A stretch of 42,525 bases of DNA from Mycobacteriales bacterium (lineage in GTDB: Bacteria > Actinomycetota > Actinomycetes > Mycobacteriales > SCTD01): NCBI GenBank assembly GCA_040902655.1, contig JBBDWV010000011.1, forward strand, positions 1-42,525. Reading direction: 5' to 3'. The notes under the pieces are model-generated. The model had not been told where the DNA came from, made no database searches, and worked only from the letters and a program-made list of their open reading frames with translations. Both the position numbers and the translations under genes were made by a program. Each line of letters starts with the position of its first letter. Within the stretch, counting starts at the first letter, position 1. Positions 11,837 to 38,633 of the stretch are shown one piece after another.

Positions 11837-12403
11837 CTAGTGCAGCAACCGTGCCGCGGTGGCCGGGGCCAGCTGTCCGTCCGCCGGCAGGCCCCGCTGC
11901 CGCTGCAGCTGCCGCACCGCCCGCGTCGTCGCCGGGCCCCAGTCGCCGTCCACGCGCAGCTGCGCGCCGTGGGTGTTGAGCAGCCGCTGAGCCGCTCGTA
12001 CCTGCGCCGGCGGCGACCCCGGTCCGACCAGGCCGGGCGGGCCGACAAAGGCCGCCCCGCCCGGCTGCGGCCCCATCTGGCGGAGCACCGGCGCCAGCCG
12101 ACCGAGCCCGCCGCCCGCGAGCCGGGGAACGTCGCTGCGCACCAGCGGACGTGGCTGCGGCCGCGCCGCGACCGGCCCCACGAGGCGAGTGCTGAACGCT
12201 GTCGGTGCCGGCCCGCCGCCGTGGATGGGGCCGCTGTGGGTGGGGCCGCTGTGGGTGGGGCCGCTGTGTGCAGGGCTGCCGGCGCCGACCACCGTGCCGG
12301 CGGCGACCACGGTCAGCACGACCGCCGCCCCCGTGAGGGCGCGGGAACGGCCGGGCCATCCGAGCACGTCCCGAGGGTGCCATCCCCGGTGGCCGATGGA
12401 CAC
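11837..12403 (-). CDS. Exported peptidoglycan-binding domain protein
   Basis: A 188-aa protein. Residues about 22-42 (ALTGAAVVLTVVAAGTVVGAG) form a signal peptide or membrane anchor, followed by an HSGPT repeat region and low-complexity Pro/Gly sequence. A C-terminal PG_binding_1 domain (about 130-188) contains VRAAQRLLNTHGAQLRVDGDWGPATTRAVRQLQ and QRGLPADGQLAPATAARLL. No catalytic domain is present, so it is probably a cell-wall-binding protein. GTG start. It is convergent with crgA. Confidence 0.82.
   Translation of the reverse strand: MSIGHRGWHPRDVLGWPGRSRALTGAAVVLTVVAAGTVVGAGSPAHSGPTHSGPTHSGPIHGGGPAPTAFSTRLVGPVAARPQPRPLVRSDVPRLAGGGLGRLAPVLRQMGPQPGGAAFVGPPGLVGPGSPPAQVRAAQRLLNTHGAQLRVDGDWGPATTRAVRQLQRQRGLPADGQLAPATAARLLH
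12226..12268. repeat. 15-bp tandem repeat inside the peptidoglycan-binding gene
   Basis: About 2.9 copies of a 15-bp unit (TGGGGCCGCTGTGGG on the plus strand), encoding HSGPT repeats in the linker after the signal anchor. The unit is a multiple of three, so copy-number change keeps the frame. Confidence 0.8.
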
Positions 12404-15631: not shown

Positions 15632-16041
15632 CTCGTACCGGCCCGTTGCCCGGCGTTCTCGGTGCCGAGAGCGACCGGTCCGCGCTTGGGCATGGCACCG
15701 AGATCAATCGGGCAGTCGGGCCCGGGCGGCTGCGGTCATTGAGCGGCTCAGCGACGTTGCAGCTGATGGCCCGGTCAGAACCACGTGAGGGGCGCCCTTG
15801 TGTCACTCGGGCTGTGCAGGAGCTGGGCCAGTCGCGCATCGACATGTGCCGCACGGCGGGTGTGCACCACAGGTCACGTTCTTCCGATTGTTGACCTGTG
15901 CTGCACACCTCCCGACGGCACACATCTCTCCGCACCGGCACCGCGCTCACGGAGCCGGGCTGCGAGCTCCCCGCGAGAGCGTGCGGCTCCGGATCACGCT
16001 GCACTCGGAAGCGCCACCCGGAGTGGGACGGAAGGGCCCGC
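15632..16041. other. 410-bp noncoding stretch bracketed by a 13-bp direct repeat
   Basis: No convincing gene on either strand. CTAGCTCGTACCG occurs at 15628-15640 and again at 16042-16054, exactly at the two flanking stop codons. Inside is a large inverted repeat (15845-15924) whose arms are related to positions 1-46. It looks like a small inserted or recombined element without a transposase gene. Confidence 0.55.
15845..15932. repeat. Inverted pair of the dispersed repeat (copies 2 and 3)
   Basis: The inner arms TGTGCACCACAGGTCA (15861-15876) and TGACCTGTGCTGCACA (15892-15907) match at 15 of 16 positions around a 15-bp spacer. The similarity extends outward to TGTGCC/GGCACA. The right arm, extended to CACATCTCTCCG, matches positions 2-43 of the window with about six differences. 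Confidence 0.7.
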
Positions 16042-33899: not shown

Positions 33900-35212
33900 G
33901 CGGGCTGGGCTGGCCGGGTCGCGGTCGGCGCGGCGCGCACGGTGGAGGTGCCGCGTCCTCGGCCGGGCTGGGCTGGCCCGGCCGCCGCAGCGGAGAGCCG
34001 GAAGGTGGGCAGCCCACGTCCACGGTGCCGGTCGAGCAGGTGCTCCCCGCTCCAGCGCGTGAGGACGAGCCGGTCGTGCCGGCTCCGCCCCGCGAAGACG
34101 AGCCGGTCGTGCCGGCCCCGTCCACTGTCGAGCCCAGCACTGCGGCACCCGCGTTGAGCACCGACACGGCCGACGCCCCCACTGCGCCGAGCCAGCGCAC
34201 CGTGGCCGCCCCCGCTGCGCCGGCCCCCGCTGCACCGGCCCCCGCTGCGCCGGCCCCCGCTGCAGCCCCGGAACTCGCGCCGGCCGAGCGGGTACGGGCC
34301 TCCCTGCGCGAGGACGCCGCCGGCGATGACCTGCCGATCGGCGCGCAGGCCGCTGCCGCTGTGCGCGCCCTGAACCCCAGCGGCCGGCACAACTTCCCCA
34401 AGCCGGCCCAGCGACGTGTTCTCACGATCGCCAACCAGAAGGGCGGCGTCGGGAAGACCACCACGACCGTCAACCTCGCCGCGGCGCTCGCCCTGCACGG
34501 CGCGAAGGTCCTCGTCATCGACCTGGACCCGCAGGGCAACTGCTCGACCGGGCTCGGGGTCGAGCACCGGTCGGGGACGCCGAACGTCTACGACGTCCTG
34601 ATCGACGGCGCACCGATCGCCGAGATCCTGCAGCCGGCCGAGGGCGTGCCCAACCTGCTCGTCGTGCCCGCGACCATCGATCTGGCCGGCGCGGAGATCG
34701 AGCTGGTCAGCGTCGTCGCGCGGGAGTCGCGGCTCAAGGGTGCGATCGAGCAGTACTGCGAGGGGCCGGGAGGCGAGGACCTGGACTACGTACTGGTCGA
34801 CTGTCCGCCTTCGCTGGGGCTGCTGACCGTCAATGCGCTGGTCGCGACGTCGGAGGTGCTGATCCCGATCCAGTGTGAGTACTACGCGCTCGAGGGGCTG
34901 GGGCAGCTGCTCAAGAACGTCGAGCTCGTCCGTGCGCACCTCAACCGGAGTCTGCACGTGTCGACCATCCTGTTGACGATGTACGACGCCCGCACCCGGC
35001 TGGCCGACCAGGTCGCCCAGGAGGTCCGCAACCACTTCGGTGCGACCGTGCTGTCCGCCACCATCCCGCGCAGCGTGCGGGTGTCGGAGGCGCCCGGCTA
35101 CGGCCAGTCCGTCGTCACCTACGACCCCGGCTCGCGCGGGTCGCTGGCCTATCTCGAAGCGGCCCGCGAGATCGCCGAGCGCGGTTCGGCCGCGAAGGAG
35201 AGCACGCCGTGA
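33896..35212 (+). CDS. parA: ParA: chromosome partitioning ATPase
   Basis: A 438-aa deviant-Walker ATPase that moves ParB-parS complexes. The ATPase domain starts near residue 175 with [21 protein letters not shown], followed by [31 protein letters not shown] and [13 protein letters not shown]. The first about 170 residues form a disordered extension with duplicated LGWPGR and EDEPVVPAP units and an APAAP repeat. GTG 33896 overlaps the rsmG stop; a start nearer the ATPase domain cannot be excluded. Confidence 0.93.
34208..34267 (+). repeat. 15-bp tandem repeat in the parA 5' region
   Basis: Four tandem copies of a 15-bp unit (GCCCCCGCTGCGCCG and close variants) encoding APAAP repeats in the disordered N-terminal extension of ParA. 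The unit length keeps the frame. Confidence 0.85.
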
Positions 35213-36189
35213 CCACGCCACCGCTGCGCCGGACCGGTGGGCTCGGTCGTGGCCTCGGAGCCCTCATCCCGACGGGCCCGACCCACGAGCAGCCCGGCGA
35301 GGCCCCGGAGGAGGTCTCCGGCGCGCGTTTCGCCGAGCTGCCACTGGACCGCATCACGCCGAACCCGCTGCAGCCGCGCTCCCACTTCGATCCGGAGGCG
35401 CTGGCCGAACTGGTGACCTCGATCCGCGAGGTCGGGCTGTTGCAGCCCGTCGTTGTCCGCGAGGTCGATGCCGACGAGAGCGGCCCGCGCTACGAGCTCG
35501 TCATGGGCGAGCGGCGGTGGCGCGCGTCGCAGGAGGCGGGCACCGGCACCATCCCGGCGATCGTGAGGGACACCTCCGACGACGACATGCTGCGCGACGC
35601 GCTGCTGGAGAACCTGCACCGCCAGCAGCTCAACCCCCTCGAGGAGGCGGCGGCCTACCAGCAGCTGCTGCACGAGTTCGGGGCGACGCACGAGGAGTTG
35701 GCGCTGCGGATCGGCCGCTCACGCCCGCAGATTTCCAACACGATCCGGCTGCTGCAGCTGCCGGCGCCGGTGCAGCGCCGGGTGGCCGCCGGCGTCCTCT
35801 CGGCCGGGCACGCCCGGGCGATCCTCGGCCTGCCGACGGCGGAGGCGCAGGAGGAGATGGCGACCCGCGCCGTCGCCGAAGGCATGAGCGTGCGGGGCGT
35901 GGAGGAGGCGGTGCAGCTCGCGCAGCCGACCGCCGACCCGGCTGCGCCACGGCCGAAGCGGCGGCGACCGGTGCCGCAGGGGTTGGTCGAGCTGGCCGAC
36001 CGGCTGTCGGACCGCTTCGAGACGCGGGTCAAGGTCGACATGGGCCGGGCCAAGGGCAAGGTCACCATCGAGTTCGCCACCCTGGACGACCTGCACCGGA
36101 TCGTCGCGATGATCGACACCGAGCCGGGTGCTGACCAGCCGGGTGCCGACCAGCCGGGTGCCGCCGAGCCGCCCCCGGCCAGCAGCTGA
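35209..36189 (+). CDS. parB: ParB: chromosome partitioning CTPase and parS-binding protein
   Basis: A 326-aa protein. N-terminus [23 protein letters not shown]-binding motif [33 protein letters not shown]; helix-turn-helix [23 protein letters not shown]-terminal dimerisation region about 240-310. Starts at GTG in a 4-nt overlap with parA. The C-terminus has a repeated DQPGA motif. Its stop codon is the first three bases of a 64-bp inverted-repeat element. Confidence 0.96.
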
Positions 36190-36250
36190 TCAACGCCGTG
36201 GTTCCGCACTTTTCCGGGCGGCAAAATGTGCGTAAGTGCCGCGTTGATCA
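36187..36250. repeat. 64-bp inverted-repeat element A, after parB
   Basis: Begins TGATCAACGC (which includes the parB stop) and ends GCGTTGATCA, a perfect 10-bp terminal inverted repeat. Inside, CGCACTTTT pairs with AAAATGTGCG around a 9-nt loop. It is exactly the same length as element B at 37488-37551 and shares its termini and a GGCAAAA...TGCG core. Confidence 0.8.
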
Positions 36251-36337
36251 AGCCGCGAGCCGCTCCGATCCCACCGTTGTGCTCGGCGGATCGACCCGCA
36301 GACACGTATGCACCTCTGGACGTCCGCCATCGAGTAC

Positions 36338-36354
36338 ACCCTGCGATGCAGGGT
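36338..36354 (-). terminator. Hairpin at the 3' end of the nuclease gene
   Basis: ACCCTGC-GAT-GCAGGGT, a perfect 7-bp stem with 3-nt loop, ending at the stop codon of the minus-strand gene. An outer GTAC/GTAC pair extends it. No U-run. Confidence 0.5.
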
Positions 36355-37328
36355 CAGTACAGGAGGGGTCCGCGCGGGCTGACGGTGAGCCCGGGTAGCT
36401 CGGGCTGAGCGAGCCGGGTGCGCGGGCGGGCATACGACAGCAGGTGCCCGGCGGCCTCGGCGATGTCCGCACGGATCCGTCGCACGCTCAGGTGGACCAG
36501 CTCCACCCCCGTGGCGCCCGTCATCCGCTCGTGCCTGTCGTACGTCGACTCGGTGTCGTCCTCGGTGCCGTGCCGCTCCTGGCTCTCCACCTCTCCCCCC
36601 ACGCCGAGGCCGAGGAACCAGATGTCCGGCGAGCCGAGGAACCGGCCGTCGAGCAGCACGTCCGGATTGACGTAGAAGGGCACGCCGCAGCCGATGAGCT
36701 CGTCGACCAGCTCCGCCTCCGGGGGACTGGCCGCCCCACGGCGGGCGTCCTGGAGGGCGCGGCGGGTCGACCCGGAGCCGTTGCGCTGGGTCGTCGCGAG
36801 CACCTGCTCCAGATCCTCGACCGAGGCCCAGTTGTCTGCGACCGCCCCGAGGAGCACGCCCCGGACGTCACGCAAGTGCTCCGTCTCCCGGCAGGCGTCG
36901 ATGACCGCGCGCTCCACCGGAGCCAGCGCCAGGCCCGCCCGGCACCAGGTCTCCAGCGACTCCAGCTCCTGCGTCCGGCGCAGGACGAGGCGCCCACTGC
37001 TACGGGTCCGCAGGTCGGGAGGAACGAGCGCCAGGACCCGCGACGAGTTCGGCAGCCAACGCAGGCCGAGCTCCGACAGGACCGCGAGGCCGGACAGCAC
37101 CATGCGTCCGTGCACGAGGCGGTGGGCGGCGTGGCCGAGATCCAGGTAGGTGAGCGGCCGAGGATGGGTGACGTAGACGCCGCGGACCGGCCGCTGCCAG
37201 TGCCCCGCGCGGACCTGACGCTCCGCCACTCGCGGATCACGACCGGCGATCAGCAACTCGGCAGTCGTGATGATCCCGCGCATCGCACGGGCACGGTCCC
37301 CGATGGCGTCGATCTCGCGGCTGCCCAC
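36354..37328 (-). CDS. AbiEi-like winged-helix plus DUF559/Vsr-like nuclease-domain protein
   Basis: A 324-aa protein. The N-terminal about 80 residues (RGIITTAELLIAGRDPRVAERQVRAGHWQRPVRGVYV) resemble the winged-helix domain of AbiEi-type antitoxins. The C-terminal about 100 residues resemble a DUF559/Vsr endonuclease fold: PDIWFLGLGVGGEVESQERH (acidic, E-x-Q-like active site), then a stretch containing MTGATGVELVHLSVRRI. Function unknown. GTG start 37328 without a clear ribosome site; ATG 37283 is an alternative. It sits alone on the minus strand between two 64-bp inverted-repeat elements. Confidence 0.72.
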   Translation of the reverse strand: MGSREIDAIGDRARAMRGIITTAELLIAGRDPRVAERQVRAGHWQRPVRGVYVTHPRPLTYLDLGHAAHRLVHGRMVLSGLAVLSELGLRWLPNSSRVLALVPPDLRTRSSGRLVLRRTQELESLETWCRAGLALAPVERAVIDACRETEHLRDVRGVLLGAVADNWASVEDLEQVLATTQRNGSGSTRRALQDARRGAASPPEAELVDELIGCGVPFYVNPDVLLDGRFLGSPDIWFLGLGVGGEVESQERHGTEDDTESTYDRHERMTGATGVELVHLSVRRIRADIAEAAGHLLSYARPRTRLAQPELPGLTVSPRGPLLY

Positions 37329-37487
37329 GGGGGCAGTGCAGCGGTCGTCGGGCGCCCGCGGAAGGCACCGCCAGGAGTCTGTGGATCGATCTTCGGAGGC
37401 GGCGGATCTCGTGGGTGGTTGTGGACGAGCGGCTGAGGGTGGTGGGTGCCCGACCCCCCGGGATGCTCGTCGTCGTGACCCCGCGCG

Positions 37488-37551
37488 TGATCAACGCCGT
37501 ACTTGCACAGCTCTCGGGTGGGCAAAACATGCGGGAGTACGGCGTTGATCA
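37488..37551. repeat. 64-bp inverted-repeat element B, upstream of the nuclease gene
   Basis: Arms TGATCAACGCCGTACT (37488-37503) and AGTACGGCGTTGATCA (37536-37551) are perfectly complementary over 16 bp around a 32-nt centre. The first 13 bases, the GGCAAAA core and the last GCGTTGATCA match element A. Confidence 0.85.
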
Positions 37552-37570: not shown

Positions 37571-37634
37571 CCACCGAGAACTCAGCGGCGGGCGACAAGG
37601 CCGCCGGGAAACTCCACCGGGAGCTCAGCGGCGG
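37571..37634. repeat. Short direct repeat at the ddl 3' end
   Basis: CCACCGAGAACTCAGCGGCGG (37571-37591) is followed 43 bp on by CCACCGGGAGCTCAGCGGCGG (37614-37634), 19 of 21 matching. The second copy contains the ddl stop codon (37625-37627), so the first is probably a duplicated 3' end. Confidence 0.6.
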
Positions 37635-38584
37635 ACGGCGGCCTGCTCGAGCAGCGACGCCAGAACCGATCCCAACGACAGGCCGGCCGCCTCCACCGCC
37701 ATCGGCAGCAGCGAGGTCTCGGTCATGCCGGGGGCGGTGTTCACCTCGAGCAGCTGGACGGTTCCGTCGTCGTCCACGATCAGGTCGGCCCGCGACAGGT
37801 CGCGCAGCCCGAGCGCGGCGTGTGCCGCGATCGCCGCCTGCGCGACCACCGCGGCCAGCGGCGGCGCGAGCCGGGCCGGCACGAAGAACTCCGTCTGTCC
37901 GGCGGTGTAGCGCGCGGTGTAGTCGTAGACGCCGGACAGTGGGACGATCTCCACGGCCGGCAGCGCGCGCGGCCCGTCACCGGTGTCGATCACCGTCACC
38001 GCCACCTCGGTCCCGCTCACGAAGCGCTCGACCAGCGCCGCCTCGCCGTAGGAGAAGCAGGACACCATCGCCGCGGGCAGCTCGTCAGGCTTGTCGACGC
38101 GGGTGCAGCCGAGCGCGGAACCCCCGCGGGCCGGCTTGACCATCAGCGGCAGGCCGAGGTGGCCGACCAGCCGGTCCAGCACCGCGCCGGCCCCGAGCTC
38201 ACGGAACGCCGCGTGCGGCAGCACCACCGAGGCCGGGGTGTCCAACCCTGCACGCAACGCGAGCGCCTTGGCCGTCGGCTTGTCCCAGGCCATCCGACAG
38301 GCTCCGGGCGAGGAGCCGACGTAGGGCACCCCGGCGACGTCGAGCACCTCGCGCAGCGCGCCGTCCTCGCCCGCGCCGCCGTGCAGCGCGACGAGCACCG
38401 CGGAGTACGGGCGGTCAGCAGCTGCGGCCTCGGCGAGCACCGTCAACAGCGAGGCGTCGGCGTCGCGCAGGTCGGCCTCGACGCCGACGTGGCGCAGCGC
38501 GTCGAGCACCCGCCGACCCGACCTCAGGGACACGTCACGCTCGTGCGAGAGCCCGCCGGCCAGGACGAGACAGCGCGCCGTCAT
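37625..38584 (-). CDS. ddl: D-alanine--D-alanine ligase family ATP-grasp enzyme
   Basis: A 319-aa ATP-grasp ligase, likely forming D-Ala-D-Ala for peptidoglycan. N-terminal VLAGGLSHERDVSLRSGRRV, ALHGGAGEDGALREVLDVAGVPYVGS, MVKPARGGSALGCTRV, and the Mg/ATP motif LLEVNTAPGMTETSLLP. At 319 aa it is shorter than the typical about 360-aa actinobacterial Ddl, so it could be a second or variant ligase. ATG 38584 with GGAG upstream is preferred over GTG 38602. Confidence 0.88.
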   Translation of the reverse strand: MTARCLVLAGGLSHERDVSLRSGRRVLDALRHVGVEADLRDADASLLTVLAEAAAADRPYSAVLVALHGGAGEDGALREVLDVAGVPYVGSSPGACRMAWDKPTAKALALRAGLDTPASVVLPHAAFRELGAGAVLDRLVGHLGLPLMVKPARGGSALGCTRVDKPDELPAAMVSCFSYGEAALVERFVSGTEVAVTVIDTGDGPRALPAVEIVPLSGVYDYTARYTAGQTEFFVPARLAPPLAAVVAQAAIAAHAALGLRDLSRADLIVDDDGTVQLLEVNTAPGMTETSLLPMAVEAAGLSLGSVLASLLEQAAVRR

Positions 38585-38633
38585 GCCCGCTCCCCGCCGC
38601 ATCCGGTACGCGGTGCGCGGCCGGCCGCGGTGC

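Follow-up and report, generated by a model that had tools for sequence, protein, structure and literature searches.

The locus described here raises the question why a solitary gene with a nuclease domain should lie between two related palindromes, and whether gene and palindromes belong to one system. The window, by which we mean the whole analysed stretch of 42,525 nucleotides, is contig C11 of a genome of 3.56 Mb in 62 contigs. An initial annotation, made from the letters of the window, had drawn attention to the pair of palindromes and compared the arrangement by analogy to RAYT transposases with REP sequences, a combination (RAYT/TnpA-REP plus REP/REPIN) which we call REPtron below.

Gene, protein and elements at the parB-ddl locus

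Element A (36187-36250) and element B (37488-37551) are dyad-symmetric sequences of 64 bp with identical 10-nt ends, TGATCAACGC...GCGTTGATCA; the arms of element B are perfect over 16 bp each. Element A is located 103 bp past the stop codon of the nuclease gene and element B 159 bp 5' of its predicted start. The gene itself (36354-37328, minus strand) encodes a polypeptide of 324 amino acids and is the only one predicted by the gene caller between the elements. Its left neighbour is parB (35209-36189, plus strand), of which the stop codon TGA (36187-36189) forms the first three bases of element A, and its right neighbour is the D-Ala-D-Ala ligase gene ddl (37625-38602, minus strand). The common length and ends of the elements, the perfect arms of B, the start of A in the parB stop codon and the isolated position of the gene had all been recorded in the initial annotation, and they hold. 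With at most one mismatch, TTGATCAACGC matches the window at four positions, which are the half-ends of A and B, and none of 100 shuffles reached four. A search of the window for known RNA families gave three tRNAs and nothing else. The window also contains a 50-nt direct repeat of 84% identity (2-51 and 15891-15940), which is outside the finding, and 15-bp tandem repeats at 12215-12274.

The parB-ddl interval carries the nuclease gene in G000 and G005, lacks it in G001, G007 and G008, where ddl is the immediate neighbour of parB, and holds ca. 0.7 kb of other sequence in G003; in G002, G004 and G006 the two flanks are not on one contig. A gene that always occupies this locus without the elements had been named beforehand as the sign of a chance association, and the three genomes with adjacent parB and ddl contradict it. 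Comparison of the interval had also been suggested as a way to a clean empty site. Gene-free intervals do exist, but divergence between the genomes is too high for a base-level junction, and for none of 83 palindromes did the loci compared include an empty site clean to the base. The gene-free interval of G007 (L116 1320-1500) contains a solo palindrome of another kind.

In an AlphaFold2 model based on 48 homologues (mean pLDDT 94.4), the protein has two predicted parts, an AbiEi-like DNA-binding module and, fused to it, a nuclease resembling Vsr and EDxHD homing endonucleases. The predicted AbiEi antitoxin-like module spans residues 1-196 (36741-37328, minus strand), of which residues 4-196 match the antitoxin structure 6y8q (Z 10.7, rmsd 7.2 over 186 residues). 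The Vsr/I-Bth0305I/DUF559-like nuclease domain is predicted for residues 201-305 (36414-36728, minus strand), which match I-Bth0305I (3r3p, Z 8.9, rmsd 2.5 over 97 residues); the model further resembles NGO0050 (3hrl, residues 195-305, Z 8.6, with a sequence-profile match at E 0.0021) and Vsr (1vsr, residues 200-304, Z 7.3, in the range below 8 for which the tool warns of common arrangements). Pfam AbiEi_4 scores 23.5 bits on the window protein, just below the curated cut-off of 25, and PADLOC AbiEi models match it with a best E of 3e-10. As to the label AbiEi/DUF559-like in the initial annotation, Pfam DUF559 gave no match to this protein, but a DUF559/Vsr-like C-terminal domain is present in the structure model. 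Across the 48 members Pfam finds AbiEi_4 in 23, the MTES_1575 REase in 13 and DUF559 in 4. In alignment A2, composed of the window protein and 47 sequences hand-chosen from 61 other frames that passed an overlap test, W44, R140, D144, S201, E204, D235, E246, H253 and R265 are each conserved in 90% or more of the 48 sequences; the candidate nuclease-domain residues among these (S201, E204, D235, E246, H253 and R265) are near-invariant in the family. Eight orthologues at the intergenic site of genus g36 described below show dN/dS values of 0.09-0.19, and in this one orthologue set the protein is kept by purifying selection. The window gene and its counterpart in G005 differ by dN 0.25 and dS 0.90. 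A profile of the protein family matches at least 251 of the 296 genomes of the class. A search of 50,697 phage records (E 1e-5) gave no homologue, and a plasmid search returned one distant match (28.5% identity, a Rhodococcus ruber record).

Dispersed elements and bracketed homologues

A genome-wide search for the 64-bp consensus, as proposed in the initial annotation, was productive. With a strict pattern, elements of this type, which we call family 1, occur at 33 places in the genome (31 with a length of 64 bp and two with 63 bp; the reversed control gave 0). With a covariance model we found at least 37, all with E values of 8.5e-7 or below; this number is a minimum, because 150 of 3167 first-look candidates were scored. 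Their length is near-fixed and dyad symmetry is found throughout the family. A search with the single protein at E 1e-3 detected one other homologue in this genome, in two frames at C2:15173-16124, and the family profile detected at least seven matching places (about seven candidates were scored per genome, so that such counts are lower bounds). An element of a distinct type, TGATCCACGC...GCGTGGATCA, follows 25 bases past the stop codon of this paralogue; this family 2 has 14 copies, every one of 63 bp. On the other side of the paralogue (L017 841-965) half a family-2 element runs into a run of 100 N, which makes its full bracketing unreadable. The window gene and its close paralogue adjoin different element families.

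Genomic context was called with a simple GC-frame gene caller for 23 of the 33 copies that match the strict family-1 pattern and for the 14 family-2 copies. None of these 37 copies lies inside a predicted gene; 17 have convergent, 18 co-directional and one divergent neighbours, one being undetermined, and in five copies the terminal TGA of the element is the stop codon of the adjoining frame. Most copies of both families are distant from either nuclease-gene copy. The initial annotation had reasoned that elements scattered after unrelated genes with no link to DUF559 genes would be ordinary repeats: nearly all 37 copies do stand beside other genes, but the link to nuclease genes is real, as described below. 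A test of 38 copies (24 from the strict family-1 set of 33, and the full set of 14 from family 2) for target-site duplication showed no excess of flanking direct repeats, with single 3- and 4-nt matches only. One family-1 subtype has several copies, and the four that were compared sit inside a larger repeat (around 1430-2150 of L005, L011, L012 and L014; 83-93% identity in stretches of ca. 140-400 bp). Contig C25 has two further copies with the same 64-bp sequence as L005, and at L022, L032, L033 and L038 partial extra copies of the element end are found a few bases beyond the element. An origin by insertion in the middle of a pre-existing inverted repeat was considered and set aside: three of four element sets showed no excess and a set of 17 copies showed a weak one.

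Pairing between the arms within a copy reaches 80.5%, as compared to 79.2% in shuffled halves (17 of 500 shuffles reach the value), 13 arm pairs are changed on both sides (reached by 4 of 500 shuffles), and the number of Watson-Crick arm pairs in family 2 is reached by 34 of 1000 shuffles; these are tests of small sets with low power. Arm covariation thus appears to be present but weak. A hairpin under compensatory selection was accordingly not retained, with covariation barely above shuffles in small sets. Because the arms are conserved mainly as sequence, we consider a dyad site in duplex DNA, occupied by a protein dimer, more likely than a hairpin.

The association of gene and palindromes extends to homologous loci. 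We called a locus bracketed when palindromes within 450 bp on each side have at least 9 nt in common, a criterion blind to palindromes shorter than 36 bp or with arms below 8 bp, and used windows 550 bp further out as distal controls. For the order, 71 homologue loci were taken, two of them from the genome studied here and with several loci per genome or genus; six (L088, L090, L094, L103, L104 and L110) had no tblastn match at threshold and were dropped, leaving 65. Further and mostly weaker places from the same homologue search, as well as locus L071, which came from a related-locus search of contigs, were left out of the counts. The sample outside the order consisted of 27 of 30 profile-search loci (the window's own locus and two of the same order being left out) together with the 40 places that followed in the list, taking one per genome. 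Bracketing was found for 26 of 65 loci in the order, as compared to none of 57 distal windows (Fisher p 4e-9) and 79 of 4160 pairings of flanks from different loci; the figures outside the order are 13 of 67 loci, one of 60 distal windows (p 0.001) and 37 of 4422 mispaired flanks. Pooled, 39 of 132 loci are bracketed versus one of 117 distal windows, and the two controls rule out chance as the cause. By the same criterion 39 of 65 and 54 of 67 loci, respectively, are unbracketed, so the association is general, not universal. The shared palindrome sequence differs among most bracketed loci. Family f33, in the sample outside the order, has no bracketed locus among 19 homologues (L237, L240, L246, L248-L250, L252-L254 and L256-L265), which possibly represent a settled vertical lineage.

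In 101 relatives we counted the matches to the pattern TGATCNACG...CGTNGATCA. In the window's own family of 24 genomes, ten have seven or more copies (56, 26, 7, 20, 12, 27, 11, 18, 7 and 38) and the other 14 have one at most. A homologue with E below 1e-20 is present in nine of the ten element-rich genomes; the tenth, G017, is without a close gene, in an assembly that is 84% complete. The gene is flanked on both sides by the TGATCNACG type in six of these nine (G000, G005, G015, G018, G020 and G022; one flank in G020 misses the outermost bases of the element) and on one side only in G003. G002 has 26 copies of this type, yet its gene is flanked by another palindrome; in G011, with 12 copies, the genes lack a flanking pair of palindromes. 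Five of the 14 element-poor genomes carry the gene at E below 1e-20, and in four of them it is bracketed. The bracketing palindromes have different ends in G010, G012 and G023 and are of the TGATCGACGG kind in G013, where the pattern matches once; in G006 a palindrome lies on just one side of the gene. Gene presence is associated with seven or more copies (Fisher p 0.011, counting the weak G001 match of E 1.3e-4 as no gene), in a comparison of related genomes that are not independent. A gene flanked by palindromes that are also dispersed in its genome was found at the window locus and in G015 and G022, where among the copies listed the dispersed elements carry the ends of the gene flanks, and not in G002 or G011.

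One site in many states

In genus g36, a motif derived from the palindromes of one paralogue has 39 to 317 matches in the nine genomes that carry the gene at 80% identity or more. Among 51 others, it has 55 to 286 matches in five close relatives without the gene (G106, G085, G140, G117 and G129), 8 to 9 in G146, G119 and G073, and 0 to 8 in the remaining 43, half and whole elements being counted together. A reversed motif gave 0 to 109 matches overall, with 4 to 55 in the nine genomes that have the gene, and since this control is not empty the low counts mean little. Within a clade of 17 genomes the link between gene and motif is not significant (p 0.08).

An orthologous intergenic site in this genus is found in many states. 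It is empty in G146, G119 and G073 (21 bp between conserved flanks), measures 102 bp without a palindrome in G085, and holds other sequence in G140. Half a palindrome is present in G117 and G129 and a solo palindrome in G106. Palindrome, gene and palindrome are found in G091, G102, G107, G108 and G128, with ca. 1 kb of other DNA adjoining in G128; the gene is inverted in G143, with both palindromes, and in G114, with a palindrome on one side only. The gene-bearing genomes G116 and G150 are not resolved at both ends of the site. The two palindromes of G091 are identical over 53 nt, and those of G108 are both of another subtype. The solo palindrome of G106 equals the left palindrome of G102 over 53 nt and adjoins a right flank like that of G102, a state which recombination between G102-like palindromes, or the reverse process, would give. 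The series of states, as read from the sequences, is compatible with homing in which an empty allele would become gene-bearing.

Turnover was further followed by comparing a 20-kb stretch of G128 with 16 relatives. At one intergenic site, resolved in 15 of these, G107, G073 and G140 have 36-38 bp without a long palindrome, four genomes have one kind of palindrome and others have different kinds; two more sites were resolved in 10 and in 3 relatives. Several further palindrome kinds occur per 20 kb in G128 (L162-L165), often with two kinds adjacent.

Proposed mechanism, rival explanations and known systems

We propose, at about even odds, that the window gene forms, together with its two palindromes, a copy of a REPtron-like system whose enzyme, unrelated to RAYT, would bind and cut its own palindrome. 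A dimer of the protein would bind to its dyad-symmetric element (some 40-80 bp) in double-stranded form and nick or cut the DNA there, after which repair would copy or convert the element. With the gene between two elements, the palindrome-gene-palindrome unit could exchange with a solo palindrome in either orientation, and solo elements elsewhere would be accumulated non-autonomous copies. Binding and cutting at the cognate palindrome are proposed because of the target size of I-Bth0305I and the binding of promoter palindromes by AbiEi. The mechanism does not explain how solo copies arrive at new, non-homologous sites. Other observations speak against the REPtron-like reading as well, namely the absence of target duplication and of a base-clean empty site, the many unbracketed homologues, the mismatches between gene flanks and elements, and the element-rich genomes without a close gene (G017, G106, G085, G140, G117 and G129). 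Our confidence is reduced because of the mismatches in G002, G003 and G011 and the control counts.

The main rival is regulation alone, which we regard as unlikely though well ahead of the others save one. The AbiEi-like module would then repress its own gene through element B and act at the other copies as a regulator or as a terminator or nucleoid factor, and the nuclease domain would have another role. For an AbiEi antitoxin, binding is described both to palindromes of the promoter of its gene and to a similar sequence at an ICE oriT (PMC11062541), and solo elements avoid divergent promoters (one of 37 copies). Regulation leaves unexplained the second element past the stop codon, the different palindromes at one site in close genomes and the alternation of solo and gene-bearing states at the g36 site, and the near-invariance of the nuclease-domain residues also counts against it. 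Only slightly less probable is that the gene is a passenger among intergenic repeats or terminators which spread by other means, with recombination between repeats moving genes in and out. The distance of most copies from both gene copies fits such a passenger, as do G002 and G011, rich in TGATCNACG copies without that type at the gene, and the inverted state at the g36 site, since plain recombination between inverted repeats can explain gene inversion; the concentration of bracketing at this one gene family does not. That the gene is an orphan anti-phage or toxin-antitoxin gene, with palindromes that mark self DNA or targets, is improbable: the PADLOC match agrees with it, but no second gene is called between the elements and the phage records searched hold no homologue. 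A genuine RAYT/REP system with a Y1 transposase elsewhere in the genome seems hardly credible. REPINs are described to be of similar size (PMC3116915), but Y1_Tnp (PF01797) was absent from all 16 genomes searched, some of them incomplete assemblies, while 5 of 14 control genomes gave a match; the window protein has no Y1_Tnp Pfam match either, and GTAG is absent from the ends of families 1 and 2.

With the REPtron-like reading, a wider and more tentative proposal can be made, to which we give rather less than an even chance: a second, independently evolved class of bacterial palindrome spreader, in which a Vsr/EDxHD nuclease with an AbiEi module would recognise double-stranded dyads rather than single-stranded hairpins, move between palindromes in either orientation, and be the source of many dispersed palindromes in actinobacteria without RAYT. 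Many bacterial genomes contain dispersed palindromes, and the literature searched connects these with no enzymes other than RAYT-type tyrosine transposases, of which none was found in the 16 genomes examined here. A widespread and often palindrome-bracketed gene family is a testable candidate source of such repeats and, if the proposal is true, suggests a function for solitary AbiEi/DUF559-type genes. Among the open-access papers listed by our searches, no title or abstract opening connects AbiEi/DUF559 genes with palindromes, which is weak evidence of absence.

Among known systems, the CGTC-tagged REPs are likewise dispersed palindromes without a RAYT partner; they are said to have no dedicated transposase and to occur predominantly in alphaproteobacteria (PMC3733652), whereas the ends found here are TGATCNACG and others. 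Unlike classical IS elements and MITEs, the 38 copies tested here show no target-site duplication. The AbiEi antitoxin of type IV toxin-antitoxin systems resembles the N-terminal part of the window protein in structure and by PADLOC, as given above, whereas the present protein has an extra nuclease domain and no adjacent toxin gene, its neighbours being parB and ddl. I-Bth0305I, an EDxHD enzyme, is described as dimerising on a target of nearly 60 bp (PMC3943268); it and Vsr have the nuclease fold in common with the model of the window protein, and the long target, which a dimer would bind here as well, is a further likeness of I-Bth0305I. Here, however, the domain is fused to an AbiEi module and encoded on the chromosome, phage homologues were not found in the records searched, each genome offers many candidate targets, and homing is a candidate activity.

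The closest likeness in layout is to REPtrons. The palindromes that flank their nuclease gene are described as dispersed also in intergenic DNA, mostly 3' of genes, with several element families that have their own genes, paired inverted units, and REPtrons that may be missing from element-bearing species (PMC3733652; PMC8266576). All this has its counterpart here: a nuclease gene bracketed by palindromes that are also dispersed in the genome, several element families with genes of their own, paired inverted units, and element-bearing genomes without the gene. The enzymes differ, an AbiEi plus Vsr-like protein here and an HUH Y1 transposase in REPtrons, as do the element ends (TGATCAACGC and TGATCCACGC in families 1 and 2, in place of a GTAG tag), and compensating changes between arms are weak here. 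The analogy drawn in the initial annotation thus stands for the architecture, with bracketing far above controls and a flank type that is dispersed, but not for the enzyme, which is unrelated to RAYT. Similar to a REPtron in its layout, the system is of different descent, and it looks as if a novel enzyme type were associated here with a family of dispersed repeats of its own.
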